Positions 4,808 through 63,593 of a DNA stretch of 64,000 bases are shown here, one piece after another. The position numbers were made by a program, and so were the translations under genes. The notes beneath the pieces are model-generated. The model saw only the letters and a list, made by a program, of their open reading frames with translations, did no database searches and was not told where the DNA came from. Numbering within the stretch: position 1 is the stretch's first letter; each line of letters starts with the position of its first letter. Source of the stretch: an uncultured Sphingomonas sp. GTDB lineage: Bacteria; Pseudomonadota; Alphaproteobacteria; Sphingomonadales; Sphingomonadaceae. Location: NCBI RefSeq assembly GCF_937871615.1, contig NZ_CALMPA010000071.1, positions 62,001 through 126,000 on the forward strand, written 5' to 3'.

Positions 4808-4815
4808 ATTATAGG
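4808..4815 (-). promoter_or_regulatory. CCTATAAT promoter element of the flbT-fliI operon
   Basis: On the minus strand the sequence reads TTGATCCTATAATTATGATG, about 30 bases before the flbT ATG. It is one copy of the motif shared by most flagellar transcription units here. A GGCAA palindrome lies 31 bases upstream of its TATAAT. Confidence 0.65.
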
Positions 4816-4844
4816 ATCAACATGGCGGCTTGCGTGCGGCACCC

Positions 4845-4857
4845 GGCAATTTTTGCC
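4845..4857. promoter_or_regulatory. GGCAATTTTTGCC palindrome between flbT and flgE
   Basis: A perfect inverted repeat (GGCAA-TTT-TTGCC) placed centrally between two divergent CCTAYAAT elements, 28-31 bases from each. The same 13-mer occurs at 14541 and 39222, with variants at 28519 and 35719. It is a candidate FlbD (ftr-like) binding site. It is followed by a second small palindrome, GCCCATTATTGGGC. Confidence 0.6.
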
Positions 4858-4883
4858 CATTATTGGGCCTGCCCCGCGCTCAT

Positions 4884-4891
4884 CCTACAAT
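4884..4891 (+). promoter_or_regulatory. CCTACAAT promoter element of flgE-flgK-flgL
   Basis: The sequence TCATCCTACAATTAGGAC lies about 52 bases before the flgE start. It matches the TSATCCTAYAAT form of the shared motif and is divergent from the flbT copy. Confidence 0.6.
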
Positions 4892-4943
4892 TAGGACTAT
4901 CGCCCGCCCGCTGTGACCGCCGGGCCTAACCGGAGTATTCCCC

Positions 4944-6245
4944 TTGAGCCTCTATTCTGCCCTTTACGCCGGCGTTTCCGGCCTCGGCGCACATGCCAAT
5001 GCGATGGCGGCGGTCGCGGACAACATCTCGAACATCAACACCGTCGGCTACAAGGGTGTCGACACGCAGTTCAGCACGATGGTGACGGACGGAAGCGGCA
5101 AATCGAGCTACAGTGCCGGTGGCGTCTCCTCGGTATCGGTTTCCACCATTTCCAAACAGGGGATGATCCAGGCATCCGGCAACGCCACCGATCTGGCGAT
5201 CGACGGCGACGGCTTCTTCGTCACCCGCACCAGCCCCAATGCGGGCGGCGAGGTCGCCTTCACCCGCGCCGGCTCGTTCCGCTCCGACGAGGGCGGCTAT
5301 CTGCGCAACGCTTCGGGGCTGTATCTCTATGGCTGGCGGCTCGACGCGACGGGCAATTTCGTCAACTCCGGCAACGTCAACGGGCTGGAGCCGATACGGC
5401 TCAACGATCTGATCGGCACCGCCGCGCCCACCACCCATATCGACGCGCGGATGAACCTTCAGTCCACCACGCCTGATTACACCGGCCCCTATGCCGCGGG
5501 CGATCTGGCATCGGGCGCGGTCGACCCCGCGTTCACCCGCTCGTTCGACGTGTATGATTCGCAGGGCGGCGCGCACCGCGTCACGATGGGCTTTCTGAAG
5601 ACCGGCCCGAACGCATGGCAGGGCGAGATCTATTCCGATCCGGCAAACGCCGTGACCGCGCCCGGCGGGCTGCTCGCCAGCGGGGCGATCCGCTTCAACC
5701 CGGACGGCAGCCTTGACCTCGCCGGATCGGACGCGTCCTTCTTCTCGCCGCTCACCGTCAACTGGACGAACAACGCCGGCTCGGAGCCGATCCGCCTCAA
5801 GCTCGGCAGCAACGGCGGGCTGGACGGCATCACCCAGTTCGGCGGGGTAAGCTCGCTCATCTCCTCGAACGTCGATGGCGGGATGCTCGGCAACATCTCC
5901 TCGATCGAGATCAGCAAGACCGGCGTGGTCAGCGCGATCTTCGACGACGGGACGACGCGTGCGGTGTTCCAGCTTCCGATCGCCACGTTCGAGAATGTCA
6001 ACGGCCTCACCCGCCAGTCCGGCAACACTTATGCCGCCAGCCGCGCCTCGGGCGGCTATACGCTCAACACGCCCGGCACGCTCGGTGCGGGGCGGCTCTC
6101 GGCCAACTCGCTCGAAGCCTCGACCGTCGATCTCGCGACCGAGTTCACCAACATGATCCGCTTTCAACGCGCCTATAGCGCCTCGTCCAAGATCATCACG
6201 ACGGTGGACGACATGCTGCGCGAAGTCAGTGATCTGAAGCGCTAA
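4944..6245 (+). CDS. flgE: Flagellar hook protein FlgE
   Basis: A 433-residue hook subunit, a rod/hook axial protein. The N-terminal signature SLYSALYAGVSGL leads into NISNINTVGYKG (about 28-39), and the C-terminal coiled-coil helix contains NMIRFQRAYSAS. The start codon is TTG, supported by CGGAG nine bases upstream; no nearer ATG gives the conserved N-terminus. The length is typical of a FlgE with one variable domain pair. It is the first gene of a hook and hook-junction operon with flgK and flgL. Confidence 0.95.
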   Translation: MSLYSALYAGVSGLGAHANAMAAVADNISNINTVGYKGVDTQFSTMVTDGSGKSSYSAGGVSSVSVSTISKQGMIQASGNATDLAIDGDGFFVTRTSPNAGGEVAFTRAGSFRSDEGGYLRNASGLYLYGWRLDATGNFVNSGNVNGLEPIRLNDLIGTAAPTTHIDARMNLQSTTPDYTGPYAAGDLASGAVDPAFTRSFDVYDSQGGAHRVTMGFLKTGPNAWQGEIYSDPANAVTAPGGLLASGAIRFNPDGSLDLAGSDASFFSPLTVNWTNNAGSEPIRLKLGSNGGLDGITQFGGVSSLISSNVDGGMLGNISSIEISKTGVVSAIFDDGTTRAVFQLPIATFENVNGLTRQSGNTYAASRASGGYTLNTPGTLGAGRLSANSLEASTVDLATEFTNMIRFQRAYSASSKIITTVDDMLREVSDLKR

Positions 6246-6258
6246 GCGGAATCGGATC

Positions 6259-8355
6259 ATGTCGCTGAACGACATTCTCGGCTCCGCCGTTTCCGGGCTT
6301 GCCGCCGCGCAGGCCGGCCTTCGGACGGTTTCGAACAACATCGCCAATGTCGGCGTCTCGGGCTATGCGCGCGAGCGGGTCAATCTATCGACCGGCGTTG
6401 TCACCGGGCAGGTGTCCGGTGTGGTCGTCGGCGAGCCGACGCGGGTGGCGGATCGTTTCCTGGAGGGGACGGTCTATCGCCGCGCGGGCGATTATGGCCG
6501 TACCGACGTTGCCGCCGCCTATCTCGATCGGCTTCAGGCGCTGCTCGGCCGGCCCGGCAGCAATGTCGGCCTGTCATCGCGGCTGGATGCGATAAGCGCC
6601 TCCGCCGTCGCGATGACCGGCGCGCTCGGCACACAGCAGACCGCCGCGCAATTCACCGCGAACGTCGCCGACGCGATCGATTCGATGCGCCAGCTCGAAA
6701 GCGATGTCGCCAGCTTGCGTACCGATGTCGAATCCGAGGTCGGCTACACCGTCGCCAAGGTCAACACGCTGCTCCAGCGCATCAACGAACTGAACGCCAC
6801 CGTAGCGCAGCAGACCGGCCTCGGGCGCAGCGCGAGCGGCGCGGCGGACCAGCGGATGAACGCGATCGAGGAACTGAGCGGGCTGATCGGCATCAACGTG
6901 CGCGATCAGCCCGATGGCCGCGTCTCGATCGAAACCACCTCGGGCGCGGTATTGCTCGACAAGCGGCTGAGGCAGCTATCCTATCCCACCGCCGGGCAAG
7001 GCAGCGCGCAGCCGGTTTACCCCACGATCGAAATCCGTTTCGCAGAGGCGAATGGCGCGATGGGGCCGTCCACGGGCGAGAAACTCGATACCGCGGCTGT
7101 CGGCGGGAAGCTTGGCGGGCTGCTCGATCTGCGCGATCGCGCGCTGCCCGATTTCGATGACAAGCTGGGCATATTGTTCGGCGGGCTGGCGGAGGCGCTG
7201 AACAGCGTGTCCAACGCCGGCTCGTCCGTGCCGCCACCCGATATGCTCACCGGGCGGCAGACCGGGATGAGCGGCGGCGACCGGCTCGGCTTCACCGGCG
7301 CCGCGACCTTCGCGGTGGTGAAGAAGGACGGCACCATGCTCGCCTCCACCCGTGTTGATTTCGACGCGCTCGGCGCAGGCGCAACGATCGACGACATGGT
7401 CGCCGCGATCAACGCCGGGCTGGGCGGCGCCGGCACCGCCACCTTCGCCGGGGGCAAGCTTTCGATCACCGCGAGCACGCCGGGCACGGGCGTCGCCATC
7501 GGGCAGGATGCCGCGAAGCCCAGCGCGCGCGCCGGAATCGGCGTGTCGCAATTCTTCGGGCTGAACGATCTCGTCCGCAGCGACAGCGGCTCGCTCGTTC
7601 CATCGGGCTTCACCACCAGCGATCCGCATGGCTTCGCCGCCGGGCAGACCACGCAATTCGTGCTGCGCGATGCAAGCGGACGGACGATCGCCAATTACAC
7701 GCTTTCGCCCGCGCCCGGCGGCACGATCGGCGATCTCGTCGATGATCTAAACGCCGGTGCGGTCGGCGATTTCGGCACCTTCTCGCTCGACGATCGCGGT
7801 CGGCTGCGTTTCGATCCGCACGCCAATCTGATCGGCGCGAGCCTCTCGGCGCCGTCCGATTCCACCGATCGCAACGGTCTGGGCCGGTCCTTCTCCTCGA
7901 TGATGGGGGTTTCCGGCGGGGCGAGCGGGCTGGCCACGGCGGAGGTTTCCCCGGCGATGCTTGCGGAATCGTCGCGATTGCCGCTCGCCATCCTCAACCA
8001 GGTCGCGCCCGGCGAAAAGGCGCTCGGCGCGGGTGATACGCGCGGCGCGACCGCGTTCGTTTCCCGGTTGGCAGGCGTGGTCGATCTCGGCCGCGAGGGC
8101 GTCTCGACGATGGAAAACTATGCGGCCAAGGTGCTTGGCCGCGCCGGTCTCGAGGCCAGCCAGGCGCGCGGGCGGCTGGAAGATGCCACCGCCCGGCGCG
8201 ATGACGCGATCAACCGTCGCGACAGCTTCTCCGGCGTCAACATCGACGAGGAACTGTCGCAGATGGTGGTGCTTCAGAACAGCTATTCCGCCGCAGCGCG
8301 CGTGCTGACCTCGGCGCAGGACATGTACGACGCCCTGCTCGGCATGGTGCGATAA
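6259..8355 (+). CDS. flgK: Hook-filament junction protein FlgK
   Basis: A 698-residue HAP1, which joins hook to filament. The N-terminus carries the axial signature (SAVSGLAAAQAGLRTVSNNIANVGVSGYARE), and the C-terminus has the matching helix SQMVVLQNSYSAAARVL. A long variable Gly/Ala/Asp-rich central region (about 330-560) forms the outer domains. It begins 13 bases after flgE and ends 15 bases before flgL, so the three are one operon. Confidence 0.96.
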   Translation: MSLNDILGSAVSGLAAAQAGLRTVSNNIANVGVSGYARERVNLSTGVVTGQVSGVVVGEPTRVADRFLEGTVYRRAGDYGRTDVAAAYLDRLQALLGRPGSNVGLSSRLDAISASAVAMTGALGTQQTAAQFTANVADAIDSMRQLESDVASLRTDVESEVGYTVAKVNTLLQRINELNATVAQQTGLGRSASGAADQRMNAIEELSGLIGINVRDQPDGRVSIETTSGAVLLDKRLRQLSYPTAGQGSAQPVYPTIEIRFAEANGAMGPSTGEKLDTAAVGGKLGGLLDLRDRALPDFDDKLGILFGGLAEALNSVSNAGSSVPPPDMLTGRQTGMSGGDRLGFTGAATFAVVKKDGTMLASTRVDFDALGAGATIDDMVAAINAGLGGAGTATFAGGKLSITASTPGTGVAIGQDAAKPSARAGIGVSQFFGLNDLVRSDSGSLVPSGFTTSDPHGFAAGQTTQFVLRDASGRTIANYTLSPAPGGTIGDLVDDLNAGAVGDFGTFSLDDRGRLRFDPHANLIGASLSAPSDSTDRNGLGRSFSSMMGVSGGASGLATAEVSPAMLAESSRLPLAILNQVAPGEKALGAGDTRGATAFVSRLAGVVDLGREGVSTMENYAAKVLGRAGLEASQARGRLEDATARRDDAINRRDSFSGVNIDEELSQMVVLQNSYSAAARVLTSAQDMYDALLGMVR

Positions 8356-8370
8356 GAAAGGGAATTAACG

Positions 8371-11132: not shown

Positions 11133-11371
11133 CCGGCGCTCCGCAGCGTGAAATATGCCGCACACGCGCCACCGGCTACGCAGGCGAGCAGGAACAATAT
11201 TATTGCCAGCATCGGCAAAGCACCCGCGCTGGCCGGGGCCGCGCCGGACGTGGCCGTCTGCGCCACTACGCGCGCGTCACCCTCGATCGTAACCGGGGTG
11301 GCGCGCCGCCTGGCATTGCCGCTGCCATCGGAGACGAGACGCATCCTTGCCGGGCGCTGGTCGTGGCTCAC
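11129..11371 (-). CDS. Small single-pass membrane protein, unknown
   Basis: An 80-residue protein starting at GTG, with AGGTGA five bases upstream; an internal ATG nine codons later is the alternative. It has one hydrophobic segment near the C-terminus (LPMLAIILFLLACVAGGACAAY) after a polar, arginine-containing N-terminus. It overlaps the next gene by ATGA, so translation is coupled to the exported repeat protein, and it has its own CCTATAAT element 28 bases upstream. I do not recognise a family. Confidence 0.7.
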   Translation of the reverse strand: MSHDQRPARMRLVSDGSGNARRRATPVTIEGDARVVAQTATSGAAPASAGALPMLAIILFLLACVAGGACAAYFTLRSAG

Positions 11372-11399: not shown

Positions 11400-11407
11400 A
11401 TTATAGG
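11400..11407 (-). promoter_or_regulatory. CCTATAAT element between divergent exported-protein genes
   Basis: The minus strand reads CTCTCCTATAATAGAATC, about 28 bases before the GTG of the small membrane protein. The core is near-palindromic (TCTATTATAGGA), so it could also serve the plus-strand gene starting 50 bases away. Confidence 0.6.
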
Positions 11408-14518: not shown

Positions 14519-14531
14519 TCCTATTATAGGA
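14519..14531. promoter_or_regulatory. Palindromic TCCTATTATAGGA promoter element (fliL / flgF)
   Basis: A perfect palindrome midway between the fliL and flgF starts (about 50-57 bases from each). Read leftward it gives CCTATAAT for fliL; read rightward CCTATTAT for flgF. One element may therefore fire in both directions. Confidence 0.6.
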
Positions 14532-14540: not shown

Positions 14541-14553
14541 GGCAATTTTTGCC
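14541..14553. promoter_or_regulatory. GGCAATTTTTGCC palindrome in fliL-flgF intergenic region
   Basis: A second exact copy of the 13-bp inverted repeat. It lies 12 bases upstream of the TATAAT for fliL and just downstream of the same element for flgF, so a bound protein could act differently on the two genes. Confidence 0.6.
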
Positions 14554-18483: not shown

Positions 18484-18491
18484 GCTACAAT
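18484..18491 (+). promoter_or_regulatory. Possible GCTACAAT promoter element
   Basis: CACGCTACAATGAAACC lies 26 bases before the downstream ATG at 18517. It matches CCTACAAT at seven of eight positions. It overlaps an in-frame upstream ATG (18490), which argues for the later start. Confidence 0.4.
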
Positions 18492-20217: not shown

Positions 20218-21543
20218 CTAGGCGAGAAGATCTACTTGCCCGTCGCCGCGCACCATGCGCCACGCGGGCGAACCGGGGACGGCATCGTCCTCGGCTGCGA
20301 AATCGGGATGATTTGCGTTGCGGTGCTGCTGCGGCTGATCGTGCCCGCCGCTGGCCCCACCGCCGCGATTTTCGAAGCGCAGGCTCTGCGCATCGGCGCG
20401 GACGCCGGCCTGTTCCAGCGTGCGCGCCAGATCGGGCGCATCCTGCCGCAGCAATTCCAGCGCATGGGCGCTTTCGGTGCGCACCGTCGCGCGGAGGCTG
20501 CCGCGATCGTCGAACGCCAATGTCACCTCGACATGCCCCAGTTCGGCGGGCTTGAGCCGGACGCGAAAGGATTCGCCGCCCGTCTCCACCCGCCGCGCGA
20601 TCTCCACGCCCAGCGCCTCACCGAAATGCCCGGCGCGCGCGACGATCGCGCCGTCATGCGCGGGGGGCGAAGCTTCGGCATGACGCGGGGTGGCATGGGG
20701 CGCGACAGCCGCCGGTGCCGGCTGGGGGAGCGCGCCCGCGCCTGTATCCGGGCGCTGCCCCTGCCCCGGTCCCGCCGCCGCGCTATCGACGGCGGCTTCG
20801 GTGATTGCACCCGGTTTCGGCGAGGTGAGCGCGGTGGATGCCGCGTCGCCACCGAGCGCATCGGGGCCAGCCGCCGCGTCCGCCGTGACGGCGGTGGCCG
20901 CGCCCCGCGCGCCGGTGGGCTGGACGACCGCGCCAATCGTGAACATCGCCGCCGGCTTCAGCCCGCCCGGCGCCCGCGGAGCCGGGTTCTGCGCCACCGC
21001 AGCAGCAGCCGGCATACCGGCCATCGCGGCGAGCAGCACATGCGCCGCCGGAAGCGGCGTGGCCGGATCACTTGCAAGCTGCCCGGCCAGCATCGCGTTC
21101 GGCTTGCGGACGCGCAGGGTCACGGGCAGCCGGGTGCGCTCGACTGCGTGTTCGATGTCTGGCGAGGGACGCGCGCCCGCTTCCTCGCCGCCTGCCGGAT
21201 CGACGAGAAGCGGCGGCTGCGCGGCGGGCTTGCCCACGCCCGCCGCGCCGTCCGACGCTGTGCCGGCCCCCGGCGCCAGCGACTTGTCCGCGCCCGGCGT
21301 GGGCACAGGCACGGCCTGCGCGTCTGGCGCCCCCTGCGCCATCAGCAACTGGGCGAGCGTCCCCGGCTGCGCGCCGTTGAAATGCGCCGCGCCATCCTTT
21401 TCGCCCGCCGCATCCGGCAGCGATGCGCCGGCACGCGCGAGATCGAAATCCGGGATAAAGCCCGCGACCGGCGGCGGAGAGGAAGCAAGTGCGGAAGCGA
21501 TCGGAAGGACGAAAGGTGTTGGTGTGGACGACCCTCCGATCAA
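20218..21543 (-). pseudogene. fliK: Flagellar hook-length control protein FliK, 5' end interrupted by IS110-family element
   Basis: The remaining frame (441 codons) keeps a long Ala/Pro-rich N-terminal ruler region and the FliK C-terminal domain with FRVRLKPAELGHVEVTLAFDDRGSLRATV (about 317-345), which switches FlhB substrate specificity. The first residues (MIGGSSTP) come from the end of the IS, read from a TTG inside it. The original ATG appears to be at 22908 on the other side of the IS. Restoring one base at the junction gives an in-frame MQIT-(D/E)-PTPFVLP. Only about five N-terminal codons are displaced, so the product could still work if the IS-borne TTG is used. Confidence 0.8.
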
Positions 21544-21592
21544 GGTTCAACCTGCGGCGTAGTAATGCCGGAGGATTTGATAGGAGGAAGCG

Positions 21593-22621
21593 ATGAAAAC
21601 CATCACGCGGATTGGCATGGATACCGCCAAGAACGTTTTTCAGTTGCATGGCGTCGATGAGAATGAAGCTGTCGTCTTGCGAAGGCAGTTCCGTCGCTGC
21701 GAAATGGTCACCTTCTTCGAGAAGCTTCCGCCGGTTCTTATTGCGATTGAGGCCTGTGGCAGTTCTCACCACTGGGCGCGACTGTTGCAGTCCTTTGGTC
21801 ACGAAGTCCGCCTGATCCCACCTCAGTACGTCAAGGCCTATGTGAAGCGGGGCAAGAACGATGCCGCTGATGCCGAAGCACTGTGCGAGGCGGTGACGCG
21901 GCCGTCCATGCGTTTCGTTCCTGTCAAATCTCGGGAACAACAGGCTGCTTGCATGCTGATGACGGTACGTGAGCGATTGGTCGGTGTTAAGTCTCAGCTC
22001 TCGAATGCCATTCGCAGTTATGCGGCAGAGTTTGGAATTGTTGGACCCGCCGGGCGTCAAAACGTCAATTCTCTGATCGAGCGCATTCTTGACGATGAAA
22101 CCCTGCCAGATCTGGCCCGCGATCTTTTTCGCTTTCAGGCCAAGGAATATGCCGCCGTCGAAGCCCGACTCGAGGAGATCGAGGACAAGCTGATGGCATG
22201 GCATCGCGCTGACGATGTGAGCAGGCGCATCGCCACGATCCCCGGAGTAGGTCCAATCGGATCAACCTTGCTCAGTATGAAGGCGCCACCCGCCCAGAGC
22301 TTCAGGTCAGGCAGACAGTTTGCAGCCTGGCTGGGATTAACGCCGAAAGACCACTCGACCGGCGGTCGCGTCCGTTTGGGCGGGATCACCAAGGCCGGTG
22401 ATCCCAGTATCCGCTCAACGCTGATCGTCGGCGCGACCGCCTTGCTGCGGCACATCAGAAAAGGGCGAACCAAAGCTTCTCCCTGGCTTGAGGCTATGCT
22501 CAATCGGAAGCCGCCCAAGCTCGTAGCGGTGGCGTTGGCAAACAAATTTGCGCGAATTGCCTGGCGCTTGATGATGTCAGGCGGTGTGTACAATCGGCCC
22601 GCGGCAAAGGTGGCCGTATGA
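21593..22621 (+). CDS. IS110 family transposase (DEDD)
   Basis: A 342-residue transposase with the N-terminal RuvC-like DEDD domain (GMDTAKNVFQLH; E of IAIEACGS; KNDAADAEAL near residue 87) and the C-terminal Tnp_IS110/transposase-20 domain (IATIPGVGPIGSTLL; FAAWLGLTPKDHSTGGR; ending RIAWRLM). The ribosome site AGGAGGAAGCG precedes the ATG. Full length with no frameshift, so probably active. Its lower GC content and different codon use set it apart from the neighbouring flagellar genes. Confidence 0.95.
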   Translation: MKTITRIGMDTAKNVFQLHGVDENEAVVLRRQFRRCEMVTFFEKLPPVLIAIEACGSSHHWARLLQSFGHEVRLIPPQYVKAYVKRGKNDAADAEALCEAVTRPSMRFVPVKSREQQAACMLMTVRERLVGVKSQLSNAIRSYAAEFGIVGPAGRQNVNSLIERILDDETLPDLARDLFRFQAKEYAAVEARLEEIEDKLMAWHRADDVSRRIATIPGVGPIGSTLLSMKAPPAQSFRSGRQFAAWLGLTPKDHSTGGRVRLGGITKAGDPSIRSTLIVGATALLRHIRKGRTKASPWLEAMLNRKPPKLVAVALANKFARIAWRLMMSGGVYNRPAAKVAV

Positions 22622-22894
22622 CGATTACCCCCAACTGGCGAGAAGACGTATAGCTGCCACGGCGGGGTGATGACCGAACTTGCAGGAACGAGTAGATGGA
22701 TTGATCGATCGGATCGAGACGCGTGAAACTCCGAAGATTACACTGGCACTTCAAACTGCCGCTTATGTGTTTGGACCACGCGTAGCGAACACCATCTCGG
22801 CCAGCGGATTTATCCGCGCAAACAGGCCGGACATCTGATAGCAAGCGATCGACTCAACTGCTGCTCGGAGCCCAGCAAGGGAGGGTCGTCCACA
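22622..22894 (+). ncRNA. Putative bridge/seek RNA region of the IS110-family element
   Basis: The 273-base right non-coding end of the IS is where IS1111-type elements encode their guide RNA. It contains AGATTACA (22735-22742), identical to the minus strand of the right flank (22897-22904), and GTGTTTGG (22767-22774), close to the left flank GGTGTTGG (21515-21522). This is the order expected of left and right target guides. The RNA ends are not determined, and the second match has one extra base. Confidence 0.45.
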
Positions 22895-22990
22895 TCTGTA
22901 ATCTGCATCTGGCAGCCCTGTTCTTGCCCCGCGTGCGGGACGATCGTTTACATTATAGGATGAAGCGCGGTCGCACTGGCCGCGCACGCC
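22895..22990 (-). promoter_or_regulatory. Orphaned fliK promoter and start region
   Basis: The minus strand carries TTCATCCTATAATGTAAACG (CCTATAAT at 22952-22959) and, 44 bases on, an ATG at 22908 with AGGG upstream and four codons (MQIT). It then runs into the IS. This is the shared flagellar promoter motif for fliK-flgD, now separated from the fliK body by 1.37 kb. Confidence 0.65.
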
Positions 22991-25136: not shown

Positions 25137-26459
25137 TCAGAGCGCCGGAGAAACCGGAATCCCCGCCTCGATGAAGCTGCGCAGCTTGTTGCGCATCGTG
25201 CGAACCGAAATGCCCAGGATGTGCGACGCGGAGGTGCGATTGCCCTGACACCGCTCCAGCGTGCGCAGGATCAGTTCGCGTTCGACATCCTCGACGGTGT
25301 GGCCGACGAGCCAGTCGAGCCGGATCGGCTCGCCCTGTGTCGGGCGCGGCGTGGCGAGCGGGCCGCCGTCCGCGCCGGTCAGATCATCAGCGCCGATCGC
25401 CCGGCCATTGGCCAGCAACGCGGCGCGCTCGATACTGTCCTTCAACTCGCGGACATTGCCGAGCCAGCGACAGGCGGCGATCGCCTCAAGCGCGCCATCG
25501 TCCAGTTCCACGCCGCCCGACGCCGCCGTCCGCGCGAAATGGCGGGCGAGCGCGATCCTGTCGTCGCCGCGCTCGCGCAGTGGCGGAAGGTCGATCAGCG
25601 CGCGCCGCAGCGCCAGCAGCAGATCGGCGCGAAACCGATCCGCCGTCACCTCATGGTGCAGGTTGATGCTGGTGGTGGCGATCAGCCGCGCCTCGACCGG
25701 CACCGGCTGATCGCCGCCGATCCGCGCGAAGCGCCGCTCGGCAAGCAGCCGCATCAGCCGCGCCTGCGTCACCGGCGCCAGCGCGCCGATTTCGCGCAAC
25801 ACCACGGTGCCGCCCGCCGCGCCCTCGATCCTGCCGATGCGCCGCGCCGCCGCGCCGGGGAATGCCCCCGCCTCATGCCCGAACATTTCGGATTCGAGCA
25901 CCTCTGCGGGCACGCCCGCGCATTCGATGACCAAAAGCGGCGCGCGGCGCGCCGATTGCCGGTGGATCTCGCGCGCCAGCGCTTCCTTGCCCGCGCCCGG
26001 CTCCCCGGCGATCAGCAGCGGGGCGTCGCCCGCCGCGATCGCCGTGGCGAACGCCTGTGCGCGGCGGATCGCGGGATGATCGCCGATGAACAGGCTGGCA
26101 TCGCGCCCGCTGATCGAGGCGATCGCGGCAACGATCAGATCGCGCTCCGCCGGCAGCGGCAGATAATCGCGCGCGCCCGCGCGGATCGCGGCGACCGCGC
26201 GTTCGGCGGGCGCGTCCACCCCGCATCCGAACACGGGCAGGACGAACCGTTCCGCACGCAGCGCGCGCATCATGCCCGCGATATCCATGCCGACATCAAT
26301 CATCATCATGTCGGCATCGCGCCGGCGCAGCATATCGAGCGCGGCATCCGTTCCCGCCGCGGTCACCACGTCAGCACCCGCCTCACGCGCCAGATTGGCC
26401 GCGATCGACAGTTCGCCATGCTCAACGCCGACGAGCAAGATGCGCACCGCGCCCGGCAT
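25137..26459 (-). CDS. flbD: FlbD-like flagellar transcription regulator, degenerate sigma-54 activator
   Basis: A 440-residue NtrC-type protein: degenerate receiver (about 5-110), AAA+ domain (about 125-345), Fis-type HTH at the C-terminus (ELILRTLERCQGNRTSASHILGISVRTMRNKL), close to Caulobacter FlbD. The receiver lacks the usual acidic pair (LLVGVEHG). Walker A is intact (GEPGAGKE, 152-159). The sigma-54 contact loop reads GAFPGA (198-203) instead of GAFTGA. The Walker B aspartate is Arg222 (VVLREI). It can therefore probably bind DNA but not remodel sigma-54 polymerase. It is encoded between fliN and flhA; the partner gene fliX is also present. Confidence 0.88.
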   Translation of the reverse strand: MPGAVRILLVGVEHGELSIAANLAREAGADVVTAAGTDAALDMLRRRDADMMMIDVGMDIAGMMRALRAERFVLPVFGCGVDAPAERAVAAIRAGARDYLPLPAERDLIVAAIASISGRDASLFIGDHPAIRRAQAFATAIAAGDAPLLIAGEPGAGKEALAREIHRQSARRAPLLVIECAGVPAEVLESEMFGHEAGAFPGAAARRIGRIEGAAGGTVVLREIGALAPVTQARLMRLLAERRFARIGGDQPVPVEARLIATTSINLHHEVTADRFRADLLLALRRALIDLPPLRERGDDRIALARHFARTAASGGVELDDGALEAIAACRWLGNVRELKDSIERAALLANGRAIGADDLTGADGGPLATPRPTQGEPIRLDWLVGHTVEDVERELILRTLERCQGNRTSASHILGISVRTMRNKLRSFIEAGIPVSPAL

Positions 26460-26852: not shown

Positions 26853-28499
26853 TCAGGAGTTCATCCACTGACGGATGACGGAAGCCGCCTCGGGCGGGCT
26901 GTCGCGGATCGAGTCACCGATGCGGCGCAGCGCGGAAAGCTTGATGCGCCCGTCAACCTGCGCCAGCGCGATCTCCTGATCGAGCAGCGGGCCTTCGTTC
27001 ATCGCCTCAAGCTGGCGCTGGGCCTCCTCGTCGCCGTCCGCCGCGCGCTCCGCGAGCGCCAGCACCTCGGGGGACTGATCCTCAAGCAGCGGCTGCCCGG
27101 CAGGCTCCGGCGCGGCGGCCATGAATTTCGGCTTCAGCATCCTGAGCGCCAGGAGGCCAATGCCGCCGATCACCCCAAGCTGGAGCAGCCCCCACAGCCG
27201 ATCGAGCGGCAGGCCAGACCACCAATGATCCTCAGCACCGGCGATGGCATCGGCGCTGAAGCGCATATTCTCCACCACCACGCTGTCGCCGCGCTGCGCA
27301 TCTATGCCGACCGCATTTTCGACGATCCGCTGGATGCGATCCATCTGCGGGCGGGGCAGCGGCTTTTCCCCGCCATCGACCATCACCGCGACCGACAGCC
27401 GCGTGATCCGGCCCGGCGCGCGCGTCGTCACCGTATGCGTCGCGCTGTTGGCGTAGGTGGTATCTTCCGAATTCTGGTTGCTGGCCGACTGGCGCGAGGC
27501 GCCCGGCGCGGTGGCCGCGATGCCCTGCGCTTCGGGAAGCTGGTTGCCCACCGACGCGGTGCGCGGGGCGGCTTCATTCTCGCGGTTCTGATCGCCGGTT
27601 TCGACGGTCACCTGATGGGCGACCACCTGTTTATCGGGATCATAGACATTGGCTTCCTCCCGCGTCTGATCGCGATCGACCTGGGCGGAAACCTCGGCGC
27701 GCACCTTTCCCTCGCCGACGATCGGCACCAGCAGGGATTCGATCTGGGCGCGCAATTTCGCCTCCACCGCGGCCTGCCGCTCGTCGGCATCGCCCGCGCC
27801 GCTCGCGCCCGGATCGCCCGCGCGCGCCAGCAGCGTGCCCGCCTGATCGACCACCGACACCGCCTCTGGCGAAAGCTCCGGCACCGACGAGGCGACAAGG
27901 CTGCGGATCGAGGCCACCGCCTCGGACGAAAGCCGCCCGCGCGTCCGCACCGTCACCGCCGCGGTCGCCTTGCGCACCTCGGTCGCGAACATCGCGCGCT
28001 CGGGCATCACGATATGCACCCGCGCCGCGGTGACCGACTGGATCGTCTGGATTGATTTGGCGAGTTCGCCCTCGATCGCGCGCGTTTCGTTGAGCTTGGC
28101 GCGGCTGGCGGAGACGCCGAACGGCTGCTCGCCATCCAGCACCTCATAACCGATCTTGCCGCCCAACCGATCGCCCGCCAGCTCCATGCGAAGCGCCGGC
28201 AACTTGTCCTGCGGCGCCATGATCGAGGTGCCGTCCGCCGAAAGCTGGAACGGCACCTGCTGGGCCTTCAGCTTGTCCGCGATCGCCGCCGCGGCGGACG
28301 GATCGAGATCGGTATAGAGGAAACCCATATCCTGATTGCCGCCGCGCGTGGCGACGAAGGCCAGCACGGCAAGCAGCGCCGCCGCCACCCCGGCCATCAG
28401 CATCAGCCGGTTCGGGCCGAGCTGCGCCACAAACTTCTTTATCGCTTCCAAGGTCGCCCCGTAAGTGAACTGCGCGGGGCTTCCCCCGGTCGGGTTCAT
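26853..28499 (-). CDS. fliF: Flagellar MS-ring protein FliF
   Basis: A 548-residue inner-membrane ring protein with two membrane helices (about 31-50 and 440-460) and ring-building motifs in between (FLYTDLDPSAAAAIADKL; RVHIVMPER; LSVAVMVDGG). The C-terminus (RIGDSIRDSPPEAASVIRQWMNS) is the FliG-binding tail. The ATG given overlaps a TATAAT promoter element and has no ribosome site. A TTG at 28451 (EAIKKFVAQLGP), with GGGG upstream, fits the family N-terminus better and may be the true start. Confidence 0.95.
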   Translation of the reverse strand: MNPTGGSPAQFTYGATLEAIKKFVAQLGPNRLMLMAGVAAALLAVLAFVATRGGNQDMGFLYTDLDPSAAAAIADKLKAQQVPFQLSADGTSIMAPQDKLPALRMELAGDRLGGKIGYEVLDGEQPFGVSASRAKLNETRAIEGELAKSIQTIQSVTAARVHIVMPERAMFATEVRKATAAVTVRTRGRLSSEAVASIRSLVASSVPELSPEAVSVVDQAGTLLARAGDPGASGAGDADERQAAVEAKLRAQIESLLVPIVGEGKVRAEVSAQVDRDQTREEANVYDPDKQVVAHQVTVETGDQNRENEAAPRTASVGNQLPEAQGIAATAPGASRQSASNQNSEDTTYANSATHTVTTRAPGRITRLSVAVMVDGGEKPLPRPQMDRIQRIVENAVGIDAQRGDSVVVENMRFSADAIAGAEDHWWSGLPLDRLWGLLQLGVIGGIGLLALRMLKPKFMAAAPEPAGQPLLEDQSPEVLALAERAADGDEEAQRQLEAMNEGPLLDQEIALAQVDGRIKLSALRRIGDSIRDSPPEAASVIRQWMNS

Positions 28500-28505
28500 T
28501 ATAGA
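28498..28505 (-). promoter_or_regulatory. TCTATAAT element at the fliF start
   Basis: The minus strand reads CGCCCTCTATAATGAACCC. It differs from CCTATAAT at one position and overlaps the first fliF ATG. If it is the -10, translation must begin downstream (TTG 28451). Confidence 0.5.
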
Positions 28506-28518: not shown

Positions 28519-28531
28519 GGCAGTTTCTGCC
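28519..28531. promoter_or_regulatory. GGCAGTTTCTGCC palindrome upstream of fliF
   Basis: A perfect inverted repeat with the same GGCAR-TTT-YTGCC plan as the three exact GGCAATTTTTGCC copies, but with both arm ends changed together (A to G, T to C). It lies 15 bases upstream of the fliF TATAAT. The compensating change suggests selection on symmetry. Confidence 0.6.
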
Positions 28532-30438: not shown

Positions 30439-30446
30439 ATTATAGG
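30439..30446 (-). promoter_or_regulatory. CCTATAAT element between fliG and the axial/propeller gene
   Basis: The minus strand reads TTGATCCTATAATAGAGC, about 102 bases before the fliG ATG. The core TCTATTATAGGA is near-palindromic and lies only 24 bases before the GTG of the divergent plus-strand gene, so it may serve both. Confidence 0.6.
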
Positions 30447-35681: not shown

Positions 35682-35689
35682 ATTATAGG
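35682..35689 (-). promoter_or_regulatory. CCTATAAT element of the flgI operon
   Basis: The minus strand reads TTCATCCTATAATGAAGTC, 35 bases before the flgI ATG. It is divergent from fliX. Confidence 0.65.
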
Positions 35690-39215: not shown

Positions 39216-39234
39216 ATCATAGGCAATTTTTGCC
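39216..39234 (-). promoter_or_regulatory. CCTATGAT promoter fused to GGCAA palindrome, flgC operon
   Basis: The minus strand reads GGCAAAAATTGCCTATGATGG, so the palindrome (39222-39234) and a CCTATGAT element (39216-39223) share two bases, 43 bases before flgC. At other promoters the two are separated by 12-31 bases. A protein on this palindrome would block the -10. Confidence 0.55.
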
Positions 39235-50056: not shown

Positions 50057-50064
50057 AATTATAG
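50057..50064 (-). promoter_or_regulatory. CCTATAAT element of the motA-che-motB operon
   Basis: The minus strand reads GATCATCCTATAATTCCC, 35 bases before the motA ATG. It is divergent from the flaF copy 90 bases away, with CCAAATTGG-type symmetry between them. Confidence 0.65.
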
Positions 50065-50153
50065 GATGATCGCCGGCCTGCCGGGCGTCCGCCGCCAAAT
50101 TGGTGTCCGCGCCCGAATGTCGCGCCGCCATCGGCTCAAATGGCGCAATCCAT

Positions 50154-50161
50154 CCTACAAT
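50154..50161 (+). promoter_or_regulatory. CCTACAAT element of flaF
   Basis: ATCCATCCTACAATTATTTCG lies 25 bases before the flaF ATG. It shares the CCTACAATTA core with the flgE promoter. Confidence 0.65.
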
Positions 50162-50618: not shown

Positions 50619-52493
50619 TCAGAAGGTCGCCCAGTCGTCGACCATCACGCGCGACGCGGGCGCCGCCATATTGTCATTCGAGATCGGCGCGATCGGCAGC
50701 GGCGCCACCGGCGAGACATAGGGCTTGTCCGCCGCCACCGCAGGCTTGCGAATCTCGACGCGCGCCGCCTGGCCGGTGTTGAACTTCCCGGCCTGCCCCG
50801 CGAGCAGCGCCACCTCGCTCGTCAGGTTCCGCGCCGCCGCCGAGGTTTCCTCCACCATCGCCGCATTCTGCTGCGTCGCCTGATCCATCGCGCCGATCGC
50901 GCTGCTGATCTGGGTGACGGCGGTGGATTGCGCCTGATTATCCTCCGCCATCTTGCCGAGCAGCGAATGGACCTCGCTCACGTCGTCGCGGATATCGGCC
51001 AGCGCGGCATCCACCTTCTGCACCATTTCCACCGCGGCCACGATATCCGTCTGGGTGGTGGTGAGCTGCGCGCGCGCGCGCCCGGCTTCTTCCTCCGCGC
51101 GCATCGCCAGCGCCGATACGAGATCGGCCACCACCGCGAACCCGCGCCCGGCTTCGCCCGCGCGCCCGGCCTCGACGGCGGCGTTCATCGCCAGCACGCG
51201 CGTCTGGAATGCGATCTTGTCCAGCCCCTCGATCACGCCGTCGATGCCTTGCGCGCTTTCGCTAACGCGGGTCATCGCGCGCACCGCATTGTCGGCGATA
51301 TCGCGCCCACCGGCGACGGTCGCGATCGCGCCATCGGCGCGCGCGACGGTGCTGGCCGCGGCGGTGACCCCGGCCTTCAGGCGTTGATCCATCTCGGCCA
51401 GCGCGGCGGAGGTCTGCTCAAGGCTCGCGGCATTGGCCTCGGTACGGCGCGCCAGATCCTCGGATGCCTGCGCGATCTCGCCCGAGCCGACGCGGATCAC
51501 CTCGGTCGAGCCGAGCGCCGATCCGATCAGCTCGCGCAGGCTCGCCAGCGCGTCGTTGAAATTGTCGCGCAGTTCGGCGAAGCCGGCGGGATATTCGGTC
51601 GTGATCCGCGCGGTGAGATCGCCCCCGCGCAACGCGGCGAGCGCCTCGGCAAGCGAACTGGTGACGCCTTGCCGCTCTGCGGCGGCCTGGGCATCGGCTT
51701 GCGCGCGGTGCGCGGCGGCAAGGCGGAATTGCTCGACCGCGTTGGCGATCTGCCCGATCTCGTCGCCGCGCGCGCGATGCGGCACGGTGCGCGCCTCGCC
51801 TTCCGCCAGCGCGGTGGTCACCACGGCGAGATCGGCCATCGGCCGCGCCACCGTGCGGCTGATCGCCAGCCAGATCCAGCCGAGCGTGAACAGCGAAAGG
51901 AGCGATGCGCCGATCGTGAACAGGAACGCGAGATACGCGTCCGCGACATTGCGCTCATTCGCCTTGTGCGAACGATCGGCCATCTGGTCGATCAGGTTGC
52001 GCGTCTCCGTCAATGCTTTGGTCGAGCGCGCGCCCCACTCGCCCTTGGCCAAGGCGATCATGCCGGCGCGATCGCCCGCCGCGCCAAGCGCGAAAATGCG
52101 TTCATCGACGCCAAGCATTTCCGCCACCGTCGACTGGAGCTGCGCGGCTTCGCCCTGCAACTCCGGCCCGGCGATCTTCTGATAGTCGGCGAGGCCGGCG
52201 GACAGCCGCTCGCGCCCCTTGGCCGCACGGGTGCGTAATTCGCCCTGCCGCGCCGCGTCAGTCGCGTCGGCGAAGCCGGAAACCGCATATTGCAGATCGG
52301 CGATTTCGCCGAGCATCTCCCCCAGCGCACGCGTCCCCGCCACGCCACGCTCGACGTGCATTGTGCCGGCGGCGGTCAGCCAGCGGTTCGAAAGACAGGC
52401 GTTGAGGGCGAGCGCGCCACTGAACAACGCGAGAAAAGCGAAGGCGGCGAGCATCTTCTTTGCAAGCCGCCAGTTATCGACGAAAGCGAACAT
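50619..52493 (-). CDS. Methyl-accepting chemotaxis protein with CheR-docking tail
   Basis: A 624-residue transmembrane receptor. TM1 is at about 14-32, followed by a helical periplasmic domain, TM2 at about 188-211, HAMP (RPMADLAVVTTALAEGEA) and a signalling domain with the hairpin tip [34 protein letters not shown]. The tip deviates from consensus (FQTR for FQTN, EAGR for EAAR, and LVSALAMRAEEEA after it). The C-terminus ends DDWATF, a CheR/CheB-recruiting pentapeptide type (xWxxF). Confidence 0.93.
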   Translation of the reverse strand: MFAFVDNWRLAKKMLAAFAFLALFSGALALNACLSNRWLTAAGTMHVERGVAGTRALGEMLGEIADLQYAVSGFADATDAARQGELRTRAAKGRERLSAGLADYQKIAGPELQGEAAQLQSTVAEMLGVDERIFALGAAGDRAGMIALAKGEWGARSTKALTETRNLIDQMADRSHKANERNVADAYLAFLFTIGASLLSLFTLGWIWLAISRTVARPMADLAVVTTALAEGEARTVPHRARGDEIGQIANAVEQFRLAAAHRAQADAQAAAERQGVTSSLAEALAALRGGDLTARITTEYPAGFAELRDNFNDALASLRELIGSALGSTEVIRVGSGEIAQASEDLARRTEANAASLEQTSAALAEMDQRLKAGVTAAASTVARADGAIATVAGGRDIADNAVRAMTRVSESAQGIDGVIEGLDKIAFQTRVLAMNAAVEAGRAGEAGRGFAVVADLVSALAMRAEEEAGRARAQLTTTQTDIVAAVEMVQKVDAALADIRDDVSEVHSLLGKMAEDNQAQSTAVTQISSAIGAMDQATQQNAAMVEETSAAARNLTSEVALLAGQAGKFNTGQAARVEIRKPAVAADKPYVSPVAPLPIAPISNDNMAAPASRVMVDDWATF

Positions 52494-52561: not shown

Positions 52562-52569
52562 ATTATAGG
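52562..52569 (-). promoter_or_regulatory. CCTATAAT element of the receptor gene
   Basis: The minus strand reads AACCTTCCTATAATTAGTC, 69 bases before the receptor ATG. Confidence 0.6.
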
Positions 52570-52908: not shown

Positions 52909-54054
52909 ATGTCCGGCACGGACAGCGGCGCGGAACGGAACGGCGGCAACAAGCCGGTGATCGACCGCTATCGCGCATTCATATTCCCCAATCGGATGCG
53001 CGAATTCAGGCAGCGGGCCGGACACGCGCGCCTGTTGCATTTCGCCGCCGAACTTCGCGACATTCCCTATATTCGCCTGTCGAAGATCGAGCGCGGTGAG
53101 GTATTCGCCCGGCCGGAGGAATTGCGGCGCATCGCCGCGGCGTTGCGGATCGCGCCATCCGAACTGCTGATCGACATCGACCATCCGGCCTTCGATATCG
53201 AGCGCTGGGCGGAGCCGTTCGCCGGCAATCAGGACGATCTGGACGAAGTGCGCTTCGCCATGTTGCTCGCAGCGGCGCTACGGGTGCGGCGCGCGCGCGA
53301 TCGCGATCTCACCATCGCCGCGATCGAGCGCGACTTCGGCATCGCGCCGGTCAATCTCTCGCGGCTCGAAAACGCGCTGAAGCCGTTCGGCCGGTGGAAC
53401 GGCGCGACGCGCGCGGCGGTGCTGGGAATAATGGGCGTGGCGAATGAAGCCCAACTCCGCCAGGAAGTGACGCGTCAGCATCAAGCAGGAGAACTGGATC
53501 AGTTCATCGGGGCGATCGCCACCCCGGAAAGCCGGCATGTGCGCAGCCGCCAGCGCATCGCCGAAATCGCGGACCTGCTCGCCGCCAGCCCCGGCGCGCC
53601 AGTCGCACCGCCATCGGCGGATGCGACAGCGACCGCGACAGCCACCACCGCGCCCGCCCCGGCCACCCGCGTCAGCGCGGTCGCCGTCGCGACGCGGCTG
53701 GTGCCCGTCCATGGCGCGCCGCAGCCGGACGGCCTTGTTTCCTGTGCGCCGACCGGCACGATGATCGAGGCCCCGCGCATCGCCGGGCGCCGCGCCTTCG
53801 GGCTGCGCATGTGTCGCGCCACGCTTGGCGGCGGGCTGCCCGCGCAGGCCACGCTGATCGTCGACCCGGATCGCTATCCCGCGCCGGGCGGGCTTGCCGC
53901 CTTGCGCGAGCAGGACGGGTGGCGCGTTCTTTCGGTCGGCGCCGATCGGGATGGGCGCATGATCGGCTACAGCACGAACCCGCCGCTGGAAATCGTGCTG
54001 GACGCGTGCGCGCCGGATACGCTCGCGGCGATCGTCAGCGCGATTTTCGTTTAG
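52909..54054 (+). CDS. Regulator with two helix-turn-helix domains and S24-like C-terminus
   Basis: A 381-residue protein with an XRE-like HTH at about 28-85 (FRQRAGHARLLHFAAELRDIPYIRLSKIERGE) and a second HTH-like helical domain at about 115-175 (LTIAAIERDFGIAPVNLSRLENAL). After an Ala/Thr/Pro linker it has a LexA/S24-like sensory fold (SCAPTGTMIEAPRIAGRRAFGLRM; ATLIVDPDRYPAPGGLAAL). No obvious Ser-Lys protease dyad. It stands between the receptor gene and the second che operon and is the only HTH protein here besides FlbD, so it may regulate motility. The target is unknown. Confidence 0.75.
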   Translation: MSGTDSGAERNGGNKPVIDRYRAFIFPNRMREFRQRAGHARLLHFAAELRDIPYIRLSKIERGEVFARPEELRRIAAALRIAPSELLIDIDHPAFDIERWAEPFAGNQDDLDEVRFAMLLAAALRVRRARDRDLTIAAIERDFGIAPVNLSRLENALKPFGRWNGATRAAVLGIMGVANEAQLRQEVTRQHQAGELDQFIGAIATPESRHVRSRQRIAEIADLLAASPGAPVAPPSADATATATATTAPAPATRVSAVAVATRLVPVHGAPQPDGLVSCAPTGTMIEAPRIAGRRAFGLRMCRATLGGGLPAQATLIVDPDRYPAPGGLAALREQDGWRVLSVGADRDGRMIGYSTNPPLEIVLDACAPDTLAAIVSAIFV

Positions 54055-57415: not shown

Positions 57416-57431
57416 CCCCAGGGGGAAACCC

Positions 57432-59773: not shown

Positions 59774-59811
59774 GCCAGCTCCTTCTTCCCGAACGCTGCC
59801 GGAGTTCCCCC

Positions 59812-60666: not shown

Positions 60667-60670
60667 GCCG

Positions 60671-61741: not shown

Positions 61742-61783
61742 CCCATTTCAGTCCGCCGCCTGTGCCCCGGCGCGGATTTTCTT

Positions 61784-61791
61784 CCTATCAT
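61784..61791 (+). promoter_or_regulatory. CCTATCAT promoter element
   Basis: TTCTTCCTATCATGTGATGG lies 26 bases before the GTG of the receptor-like gene. It differs from CCTATAAT at one position. Confidence 0.5.
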
Positions 61792-61816
61792 GTGATGGTT
61801 CAGCCGGGAGGCAATT

Positions 61817-63535
61817 GTGTATTTCGCCAACAACATAACGGGCTCCGCCGAACCATGTTCGGCGCTGGAGAGCCTTGAAGCGGAATTGCGCGATCTGACA
61901 AGCAATCTCGACAGCCGGTTCGTGCGCGCCGGGCAGACGCTTGGCGAGGCATATGACATCGTGGAGCGGCTGATCGGCGGCCTCGACGGCGTGATTCACG
62001 CGCTGGACGAGGATGCCGCCAACGCCGCGATCGCGCGAATGCAGGCGACCGCCAGTCATCTGATGCGGATTCCCGAGCGGCAGGCGGCGCGCGCGGACGC
62101 GTTCGACACGATCCGCGCCATGAACGGCGCGATCGGGCAGCAGATGTGGAAGATCAACCGCCTGCTCAGCTTCCTCAGGATTTGCGGCCTGAACATCAAG
62201 ATCGCCGCCGCGGGCGCACAGGATTTCGCGGATTTCGCCGAGATCATCTTCGCCCGGATTGATCTGGGCGAGCGCGAGATCAGTGAGATCGGTCGCACCT
62301 CGGAGCGATTGCACGCGGGCATCGCCGGGGTGGAGGATGTGGAACATCGCCTCGCCGCCGAAAGCCGGCGCGTCGTGCCGGCGGTTCCGCAGAAGCTGAA
62401 CGCCGATGCCGACGCGCTCGCCCTTCACCAGCAGAATTCGAGCGCGCGCGCCACGCGCAGCGCGGAGGTGGCGCGTGCGCTGCGTGCGCCTGTCGCCGCC
62501 GCGATCGGCGCGATCCAGATCGGCGACATCACGCGGCAACGGCTTGAGCATGTGACGGACGGCATTCGCGCGGCGCGCGCGTTCCTGGCCGAACACCCCG
62601 ATATCGACACCGGCGCCGCAACCGCGATCCACGATCATGTGCTGGCGATGCTGGCGGCGCAGGCCGAAGATACCATTCGCGATATGGCGCGGGATTCGCG
62701 CGTGCTCACCGAAAGTATGCAGGCGATCAGCCCCGGCGTCGCGGCGCTGCTCGAACTCGCCGGCACCGCGGACGCTTCGCCCGAGGGCGTCGCCTTGTTC
62801 GAAACGGTGGAACGCAACATCCGCCAGGTCACCACGCTGACCAGCCAGTTGCATGAGGCCGATGCGCGATCGAGCCGGTTGGGCAACGACGCATCGGCGA
62901 CGGCGAACGATCTCGCGCGCCGCGCGCGGCATATCCATCGCATCACCAACGATGTGCAGCAGATGGCGTGGAACACCGATCTGCGCTGCCACCGCATGGG
63001 GGACGAGGGCCGCGCGCTTGCCAGCGTCGCGGGCGAAATCCGTGGTCTGGCAAACCAGCTCGAAACAATATCATCCGATATTTCCAGCCTGTTCGACCGG
63101 CTGGCGGACGCCGCCGCGGCGATCCGCGCGCCATGGGAGGACGTGCCCGATGCAGCCGGCGCGCTGACCGGATCGCTCGACTTTATCCGCACCGGCAGTG
63201 ATCGGTTGCAGGCCAGCCTCGCCGCATTGCGGCGCGATATCGAAACCGTGGCGCTTGTTCTCGACGGGATCGAGCGCGCGGTCGATTGCGAACAGCTTGT
63301 CGCCGATCTGTCGCGGATCGCCACCGGAATCGGCGCATTCGGCGCGGCGACCGATCCCGCGCGCGAAGATATCGCGCCGTTGCTGGACGAGTTGCTTCGC
63401 GGAATCGCCGCCACCTACACCATGACCCGCGAGCGCGAGGTTCATCGCCTGTTCGCCGCCGCCGAGGACGCCACCGACCCGGCCGGAACGGTAGAAGCGA
63501 TGGCCGAGGATGATTTCGACGACGGTCTGTTCTGA
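61817..63535 (+). CDS. Soluble receptor-like protein with CheZ-type D-x-x-x-Q motif
   Basis: A 572-residue protein starting at GTG (GGGAGG upstream). It has no membrane segment and is nearly all helical. Residues about 380-411 read MAWNTDLRCHRMGDEGRALASVAGEIRGLANQ, a degenerate match to the receptor hairpin tip ([28 protein letters not shown]). A more degenerate copy may lie at about 115-145. Between them, IGDITRQRLEHV carries D237-x-x-x-Q241, as in CheZ FQDLTGQ. The acidic end EAMAEDDFDDGLF recalls the CheY-binding tail of CheZ. It could be a phosphatase or adaptor docked in receptor arrays; this is inference. Confidence 0.7.
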   Translation: MYFANNITGSAEPCSALESLEAELRDLTSNLDSRFVRAGQTLGEAYDIVERLIGGLDGVIHALDEDAANAAIARMQATASHLMRIPERQAARADAFDTIRAMNGAIGQQMWKINRLLSFLRICGLNIKIAAAGAQDFADFAEIIFARIDLGEREISEIGRTSERLHAGIAGVEDVEHRLAAESRRVVPAVPQKLNADADALALHQQNSSARATRSAEVARALRAPVAAAIGAIQIGDITRQRLEHVTDGIRAARAFLAEHPDIDTGAATAIHDHVLAMLAAQAEDTIRDMARDSRVLTESMQAISPGVAALLELAGTADASPEGVALFETVERNIRQVTTLTSQLHEADARSSRLGNDASATANDLARRARHIHRITNDVQQMAWNTDLRCHRMGDEGRALASVAGEIRGLANQLETISSDISSLFDRLADAAAAIRAPWEDVPDAAGALTGSLDFIRTGSDRLQASLAALRRDIETVALVLDGIERAVDCEQLVADLSRIATGIGAFGAATDPAREDIAPLLDELLRGIAATYTMTREREVHRLFAAAEDATDPAGTVEAMAEDDFDDGLF

Positions 63536-63585
63536 CCGGACGATTCCAAACATCGCCCGGTTCGGGCGAACAGGCCGCGGCCTCT

Positions 63586-63593
63586 CCTATAAT
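63586..63593 (+). promoter_or_regulatory. CCTATAAT element upstream of the TorF-like gene
   Basis: CCTCTCCTATAATGGAAATA lies 36 bases before the ATG. It is the only copy found in front of a gene that is not obviously part of the flagellum. Confidence 0.6.

Follow-up and report, generated by a model that had tools for sequence, protein, structure and literature searches.

The DNA analysed here, hereafter the window, is a 64,000-nucleotide stretch of a Sphingomonas genome (C71:62001-126000 of the host genome), in which copies of the short motif CCTAYAAT precede flagellar and chemotaxis genes. On sequence grounds, these promoters form a class dedicated to flagellar genes, with an extended -10 element, TCaTCCTAYAAT, built around CCTAYAAT. 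This element is most likely read by sigSF, a sigma-70-family protein encoded at 348-1385 (minus strand), and tuned through a site for the helix-turn-helix (HTH) domain of FlbD; we give this reading a probability of about 0.75. The motif, its specificity, conservation and layout, the sigma-family relationship and synteny of sigSF, the decay of FlbD and the lack of enrichment of full-consensus sigma-54 promoters are read directly from DNA and protein sequences. From these we predict that sigSF binds RNA polymerase and the motif, where transcription starts and what FlbD does.

The motif in the window, the host genome and related sphingomonads

Eleven exact copies of CCTAYAAT were found on the two strands of the window, against a dinucleotide-shuffle mean of 0.32 and a maximum of 3 in 100 shuffles. 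The original prediction had placed exact copies before a series of transcription units, and all 11 were found there. Nine of them read toward flagellar or chemotaxis genes identified in this analysis. On the minus strand they stand before flbT (CCTATAAT, 4808-4815), fliL-fliM (14523-14530), a fliK interrupted by an insertion sequence (22952-22959), fliG-fliH (30439-30446), flgI (35682-35689), motA (50058-50065) and the chemoreceptor gene 50619-52493 (52562-52569). On the plus strand they stand before flgE (CCTACAAT, 4884-4891) and flaF (50154-50161). The other two copies stand before the unit at 11371 (11400-11407, minus strand) and before a gene starting near 63629 (63586-63593, plus strand). 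The former site has a counterpart in G118, which belongs to another order, where it also lies upstream of a similar gene. The flbT, flgE and motA copies are also supported by conservation.

A position weight matrix (PWM) trained solely on other genomes was used to scan the window, with a background of 4.2 shuffled hits of at least 8 bits per window. Fourteen sites scored above 13 bits, namely the 11 exact copies, with the flgI site at the top (27.4 bits), and three variants. Sixteen one-mismatch sites were listed in the window, and the four picked out in the original prediction are all present with uneven support. The variant CCTATCAT before a gene at 61817 resembling methyl-accepting chemotaxis proteins (61784-61791, plus strand, 15.1 bits) and the variant TCTATAAT before fliF (28498-28505, minus strand, 13.4 bits) are clear by PWM. 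The candidate GCTACAAT (18484-18491, plus strand) is weak, its 10.4 bits being near background. The variant CCTATGAT before flgC (39216-39223, minus strand) is absent from the window hits of at least 8 bits, but CCTATAAA, CCTATAAG, CCTATTAG or CCTATCAT was found at the same place in seven relatives. The third variant above 13 bits, CCTATTAT (14520-14527, plus strand, 16.1 bits), is a partner that faces the fliL site and reads toward flgF. Some open reading frame (ORF) starts in the window, such as those of flaF and flgI, are probably set too far upstream, and motif-to-start distances are rough.

Across the host genome (3.99 Mb, 71 contigs), CCTAYAAT occurs 58 times and the reversed control pattern 20 times. 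The 8-mer alone, as first described, is not restricted to flagellar genes, whereas its AT-extended form is restricted to the cluster. All seven ATCCTAYAAT of the whole genome lie within the flagellar cluster, which has a chance of about 3e-13 under random placement of sites, and the reversed pattern does not occur.

The motif is kept before orthologous units in Sphingomonas, Novosphingobium, Sphingobium and others. Eleven relatives have 43 CCTAYAAT in their orthologous clusters (760 kb), with about 5.7 expected and 9 reversed. The clusters of 10 relatives of the same order without sigSF have 11, with 10.6 expected and 10 reversed. Similarly, 4 were counted in the FliA-type clusters of six sigSF-positive genomes (2.0 expected, 1 reversed). 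The looser pattern YCTAYAAK occurs 125 times against 15.8 expected in the sigSF-positive clusters including the window, 37 times against 36.2 in the order relatives without sigSF, and 23 times against 8.0 in the FliA-type clusters, the last being a mild excess. This cluster specificity, the conservation before orthologous units and the near-chance counts elsewhere support the dedicated flagellar promoter class that had been proposed.

The same motif was obtained without being chosen in advance. The top 7-mer in 327 upstream regions of relatives was CCTATAA (33 against 0.74). The motif search in related sphingomonads that had been suggested as a check was run by expectation maximisation (EM), seeded by the enriched 6-mers of the set itself, and recovered TCaTCCTAYAAT, estimated to be present in 94% of 117 regions (the non-redundant part of 169 upstream regions from 80 named sphingomonad loci). 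At 9 bits or more, the EM matrix was found in the named regions, which are its training set, before flbT in 60/68, flgE in 67/67, motA in 21/21 and flgC in 7/7, and before flgI in 0/4. It was found in 0/50 upstream regions of cluster genes of the order relatives. In a set of 12 genomes, at least four of which are shared with the named set, just 7/12 were reached for each of flbT and flgE, with variants such as CCTATAAG. Scans from fixed ORF starts at 9 bits gave 0/11 for fliF, 1/10 for fliG, and 0/6 and 0/4 for flgI; the misses in the window at these three genes arise because the ORF starts lie too near or past the motif.

At the genome level, the 12 sigSF-positive genomes (of 61) hold 46 ATCCTAYAAT, 32 of them no more than 40 kb from sigSF or flhA, or on a contig that carries one of the two. 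The 25 sigSF-negative genomes of the genus hold 21 in total, and each of the order relatives, some of which have a lower GC content, 0 to 10. Three sigSF-positive genomes (G015, G022 and G026) have no ATCCTAYAAT near the cluster and carry variants such as CCTATAAG instead.

The sigma-70-family gene sigSF

The original prediction missed the likely cause of this promoter class, which is the pair formed by the sigma-family gene at 348-1385 and the decayed FlbD gene at 25137-26459. The product of sigSF has 345 residues and is proposed as the promoter reader from profiles, structure matches and synteny. The region 2 profile Sigma70_r2 (PF04542) matched 38/40 family members at E<=0.01 (best 9.5e-7), with the window protein alone at 20.5 against a cut-off of 24. 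Region 4 (PF04545) matched 22/40 members (best 9.3e-9) and is diverged in the others, with the window protein at 21.6 against 24.1. Across the family, region 2 is near-invariant and region 4 variable. TIGR02937 matched the window protein at E=1e-8, and the sigSF profile matched the host's RpoH-like protein across regions 2 and 4 (E=1.3e-5). The ECF superfamily cut-off was missed (35.0 against 42.9), as were those of the FliA/WhiG model TIGR02479 (22.1 against 189.6 bits) and the RpoH model TIGR02392 (27.9 against 323.1 bits). In a structure search, the 50 listed matches were all to sigma factors or to entries for transcription initiation, with the alignment on the presumed sigma chain; Foldseek taken by itself gave weak results. 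Region 2 of sigma-E was matched, and nine region 2 matches had root-mean-square deviations of 2.1-3.5 over 88-105 residues. The predicted structure also has a long low-confidence linker and a C-terminal tail. By these matches, sigSF is a divergent sigma-70-family protein.

The gene travels with the flagellar cluster. In 70 of 80 loci (the best 80 of 118 found), fliI lies within 10 kb of sigSF, mostly together with fliJ, flbT and the gene at 1590. Two of the other ten loci are at contig ends, and eight (L195, L196, L199, L200, L204, L214, L225 and L245) hold paralogues with no flagellar gene inside 10 kb; seven of these eight are the additional copy in genomes that also have one at a flagellar locus. 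The gene at 1590-2585, conserved between fliJ and sigSF, has a weak transglycosylase match (E=0.021) and perhaps encodes a flagellar muramidase.

Within the genus, sigSF was found in 12/37 genomes. All 11 genomes with an alpha-type flhA, a label set by a score gap (810-842 bits against 777 or less), carry sigSF, which is present in 1/26 of the others (Fisher p 1.4e-8). In G031, sigSF, flbT, fliI and flgE are present and the alpha-type flhA is missing from the assembly. No sigSF match was found in the 24 order relatives, which include the 10 whose clusters were compared. Among the matches listed for 289 genomes across the class, full-length ones came only from the host genome and G118; the others were short and confined to region 4.

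The region before sigSF has signals of its own. TATAGGA, the reverse of TCCTATA, is conserved there (L174-L253), and several genomes have two copies at least roughly 20 bases apart. Half-sites of the type GTTAACC/GTTAAAGGA were seen by eye in some genera. The neighbouring gene upstream has the same orientation as sigSF. These sequences suggest autoregulation or control by CtrA, and CtrA may act one step above the flagellar promoters, at sigSF.

Promoter layout and possible readers of the motif

Ninety-five non-redundant promoters, out of 148 of flbT, flgE, motA and flgC, were aligned with TAYAAT numbered -12 to -7. The pattern [CT]CTA[CT]AA was required, which sets seven columns by selection and leaves the others free. 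The hexamer is preceded by T-18 C-17 a-16 T-15 C-14 C-13. A purine stands at +1, 7 bases past the hexamer, in 91% of the promoters, and an A/T box lies at -52 to -47. A weak CSG was found at -33 to -31 (C 58%, S 93%, G 57%), and TTGACA is not enriched, since matches of at least 4/6 occur in 6/95 promoters against 13.7 in shuffles. The earlier statement that no common -35 box could be aligned was nearly right, holding for TTGACA and overlooking the weak CSG. The same layout was seen in 48 partly overlapping sites, and the EM run, free of the pattern restriction, returned the same TCC and hexamer.

In the proposed mechanism, sigSF would bring RNA polymerase to the promoters, with its near-invariant region 2 reading the extended -10 element. 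The -35 box would add little, as region 4 is variable and faces only the weak CSG. The A/T box, or the palindrome GGCAA-N3-TTGCC near -50, would tune the promoter, the palindrome as a probable FlbD HTH site.

This palindrome occurs 18 times against 0.4 expected in the sigSF-positive clusters and 11 times against 0.2 in the order relatives with intact FlbD. Because it is enriched in both, it is probably the site of the FlbD HTH domain. In the window it was found between the flbT and flgE promoters (GGCAATTTTTGCC, 4845-4857), at fliL/flgF (GGCAATTTTTGCC, 14541-14553), at fliF (GGCAGTTTCTGCC, 28519-28531) and at flgC (GGCAATTTTTGCC, 39222-39234). Matches of at least 8/10 were found at 30/41 flbT and 20/38 flgE promoters, and in 3% of shuffles. 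Relative to the first C of the motif, the centres lie at -37 to -35 for flbT; for fliF they lie at -20 to -16 in 7/7 genomes with a shortened FlbD and at -38/-37 in four others. No such match occurs at the 14 motA promoters, and the palindrome was rejected as a universal promoter partner. The DNA-binding end of FlbD would modulate some units, and the palindrome is not needed at every promoter. As a separate observation, a version one base wider, GGCAA-N4-TTGCC, occurs in the FliA-type clusters (G000:C11, L155-L173) 13 times against 0.2, together with sigma-54 promoters. The N3 and N4 palindromes are perhaps two related codes separated by spacing.

The strongest rival explanation is that CCTAYAAT is an ordinary RpoD -10 element, that specificity comes from an activator, and that sigSF has a role elsewhere. 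The activator could be the decayed FlbD, CtrA, or the two-HTH (XRE-like) protein encoded at 52909-54054 (plus strand). The latter is a possible further regulator by its profiles and linkage, as its gene was found in the fetched regions of 9/11 relatives, in G118, and near sigSF in 39/80 loci. The hexamer TATAAT fits RpoD, the A/T box or palindrome stands upstream at a fixed spacing, and the fla2 genes of Rhodobacter sphaeroides use CtrA with a purine start, as described in excerpts of PMC6180460. We nevertheless consider this explanation unlikely. The TCC before the hexamer is conserved nearly as strongly as the hexamer itself, the AT-extended form is found only in the cluster, and TTGACA is not enriched about 17 bases before the hexamer. 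T occurs at -7 in 69% of the aligned promoters, but is missing from more than 80% of Novosphingobium aromaticivorans sigma-70 promoters according to excerpts of PMC8407463. The palindrome is missing from the motA promoters, and the conserved, cluster-linked sigma gene would be left without an explanation.

A second rival takes TCCTATA as the operator of a transcription factor that overlaps an RpoD promoter. The reversed TATAGGA before sigSF, where the upstream neighbour runs the same way, and the existence of a linked two-HTH protein are consistent with an operator. The motif, however, is non-palindromic and of fixed orientation, has a purine at start-site distance and contains a full -10 hexamer. 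There is also little room for another promoter downstream, because the motif begins 29-42 bases before the start codon in 39/95 promoters. We regard this second rival as improbable, and recognition of the extended -10 element by sigSF as the better account.

Decay of FlbD, probable replacement of sigma-54 and comparison with known systems

The window FlbD (440 residues, 25137-26459, minus strand) was identified by profile and alignment. It has GAFPGA in place of GAFTGA and LREI in place of LDEI, with the HTH intact, and it should no longer hydrolyse ATP or contact sigma-54. In all 21 distinct sigSF-positive genomes with a full-length FlbD, the Walker-B Asp is replaced by Arg and GAFTGA is broken, with the HTH kept. 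The 21 genomes correspond to 22 alignment rows (10+11+1), G064 being counted as G011; the flbD of G017 (11% aligned) and G031 (none) were excluded. In the order relatives, 10/10 have an intact GAFTGA and Walker-B Asp-Glu. Nine of 20 named sigSF-positive genomes gave no full-length FlbD. A profile of the decayed FlbD found C-terminal HTH remnants in eight of these nine, G074 giving none. The remnants (82-186 residues) lie between fliN and flhA and have no AAA+ domain, and one matches a receiver. The decayed ATPase motifs are found in many Sphingomonas and some other sphingomonads, and the shortened form, ending in a Fis-like DNA-binding domain, in the sampled Novosphingobium, Sphingobium and some Sphingomonas. 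FlbD would accordingly be a former sigma-54 activator of flagellar genes that is now, if active at all, a plain DNA-binding protein.

The sigma-54 promoters are consistent with this. The full consensus TGGCNC-N5-TTGCW does not occur in 824 kb of sigSF-positive clusters, where 4.2 were expected. It occurs 18 times against 4.0 in the order relatives, with at least one in 9/10, and 17 times against 2.0 in the FliA-type clusters. The counts of two other patterns stand against this. TGGCAC-N5-TTGC occurs once against 1.2 expected in the sigSF-positive clusters, 5 times against 2.0 in the order relatives and 13 times against 0.8 in the FliA-type clusters. The loose TGG[CA]-N7-TTGCW is mildly enriched in the sigSF-positive clusters (31 against 18.2), with 37 against 21.0 and 28 against 8.2 in the other two sets.

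A Caulobacter scheme, with CtrA followed by sigma-54 and FlbD, was inferred for Sphingomonas sp. WG in excerpts of PMC8921679. The genes for FlbD, FlbT and FlaF are present, rpoN is still in the host genome, and the mild enrichment of the loose pattern fits this scheme. Against these stand a FlbD that lacks the sigma-54 contact motif and the Walker-B Asp, or the whole AAA+ domain, and the absence of full-consensus promoters. Sigma-54 control was rejected on the promoter counts and the FlbD decay, and we hold it to be very improbable.

FliA of the second flagellar system, encoded on C11, can be dismissed as the reader: the FliA -10 consensus GCCGATAA is similar to the motif, CCTATAA being one base from CCGATAA, but G002 and G023 have no FliA hit above the RpoD level and yet carry sigSF, the cluster and the motif, CCTAYAAT is near chance in the FliA-type clusters (4 against 2.0), and a FliA-like pattern occurs 0 times against 0.8 in the sigSF-positive clusters, a weak test as the FliA-type clusters give only 2 against 0.6.

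In textbooks, flagellar genes are a standard example of control by sigma-54 or FliA hierarchies. We think it rather probable that a private sigma-70-family factor, reading an extended -10 element with almost no -35, took the place of a whole sigma-54 circuit in situ, with the stages of the swap surviving, and that the module moves between orders. In the same joint reading, the intermediates would be the intact FlbD of the order relatives, the FlbD with a poisoned ATPase and the cut-down FlbD. If this is true, the sphingomonads have a third sigma solution with visible swap intermediates, the evolution of sigma-factor replacement becomes directly testable, and sigSF and its element form a compact, orthogonal sigma-promoter pair.

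The movement between orders is indicated by G118, in which the alpha-type sphingomonad cluster, sigSF and the decayed FlbD were found together (L289-L293, G118:C2:1190001-1290000). Its 52-kb cluster has 14 CCTATAAT, and the other 48 kb fetched have none. Genome-wide, G118 has 75 CCTAYAAT and 22 reversed. In two other members of its genus, all matches of the sigma profile were short and of the region 4 type. The alpha-type cluster was probably acquired in G118 by horizontal transfer, and the promoters and sigSF appear to have moved together.

The closest known system is the CtrA/sigma-54/FlbD circuit of Caulobacter crescentus, which shares the cluster type, FlbT, FlaF and a FlbD next to fliN and flhA. 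GGCAA-N3-TTGCC may correspond to the FlbD target sites, a link to ftr that we infer here by sequence; what FlbD and ftr do in Caulobacter is described in excerpts of PMC3930126. Unlike that of Caulobacter, the sphingomonad cluster has no full-consensus sigma-54 promoters, a ruined or deleted FlbD ATPase, a sigma-70-family gene and an extended -10 element. FliA (sigma-28) is likewise a sigma-70-family protein encoded with flagellar genes, and sigSF is probably dedicated in the same way. Unlike FliA, sigSF would read another motif and apparently acts on early, middle and chemotaxis genes, and it occurs in the same genome as a true FliA. The R. sphaeroides fla2 set is also a second flagellar set run without sigma-54, but there CtrA acts near -35, FlbD is absent and the excerpts of PMC6180460 describe no special sigma factor. 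The match to the RpoH-like protein and to sigma-E region 2 recalls the RpoH and ECF factors, whereas sigSF falls below both cut-offs and has the long linker and tail.

No description of sigSF or the motif was found in the parts of the open-access PMC literature covered. If sigSF reads the motif, the Caulobacter-like order in PMC8921679, as excerpted, would need correction. Plant-associated Sphingomonas often have two flagellin systems whose roles are divided between swimming and attachment (PMC13015449, excerpts), and separate sigma control could help to explain their independent switching; the words sigma, promoter, FlbD, FliA and CtrA do not appear in the text of that paper. A set of N. aromaticivorans start sites has been published (PMC7471390, excerpts).

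Two further features of the cluster were observed. The 927-residue product of the gene at 30470-33253 matches beta-propeller repeats, though below cut-off (NF047494, 2.6e-13), and the gene is conserved with the cluster. The fliK gene is interrupted about 10 codons in by an IS110-like element (21523-22894) with 15-bp inverted arms at 21523-21537 and 22880-22894, and this isolate may have lost control of hook length.

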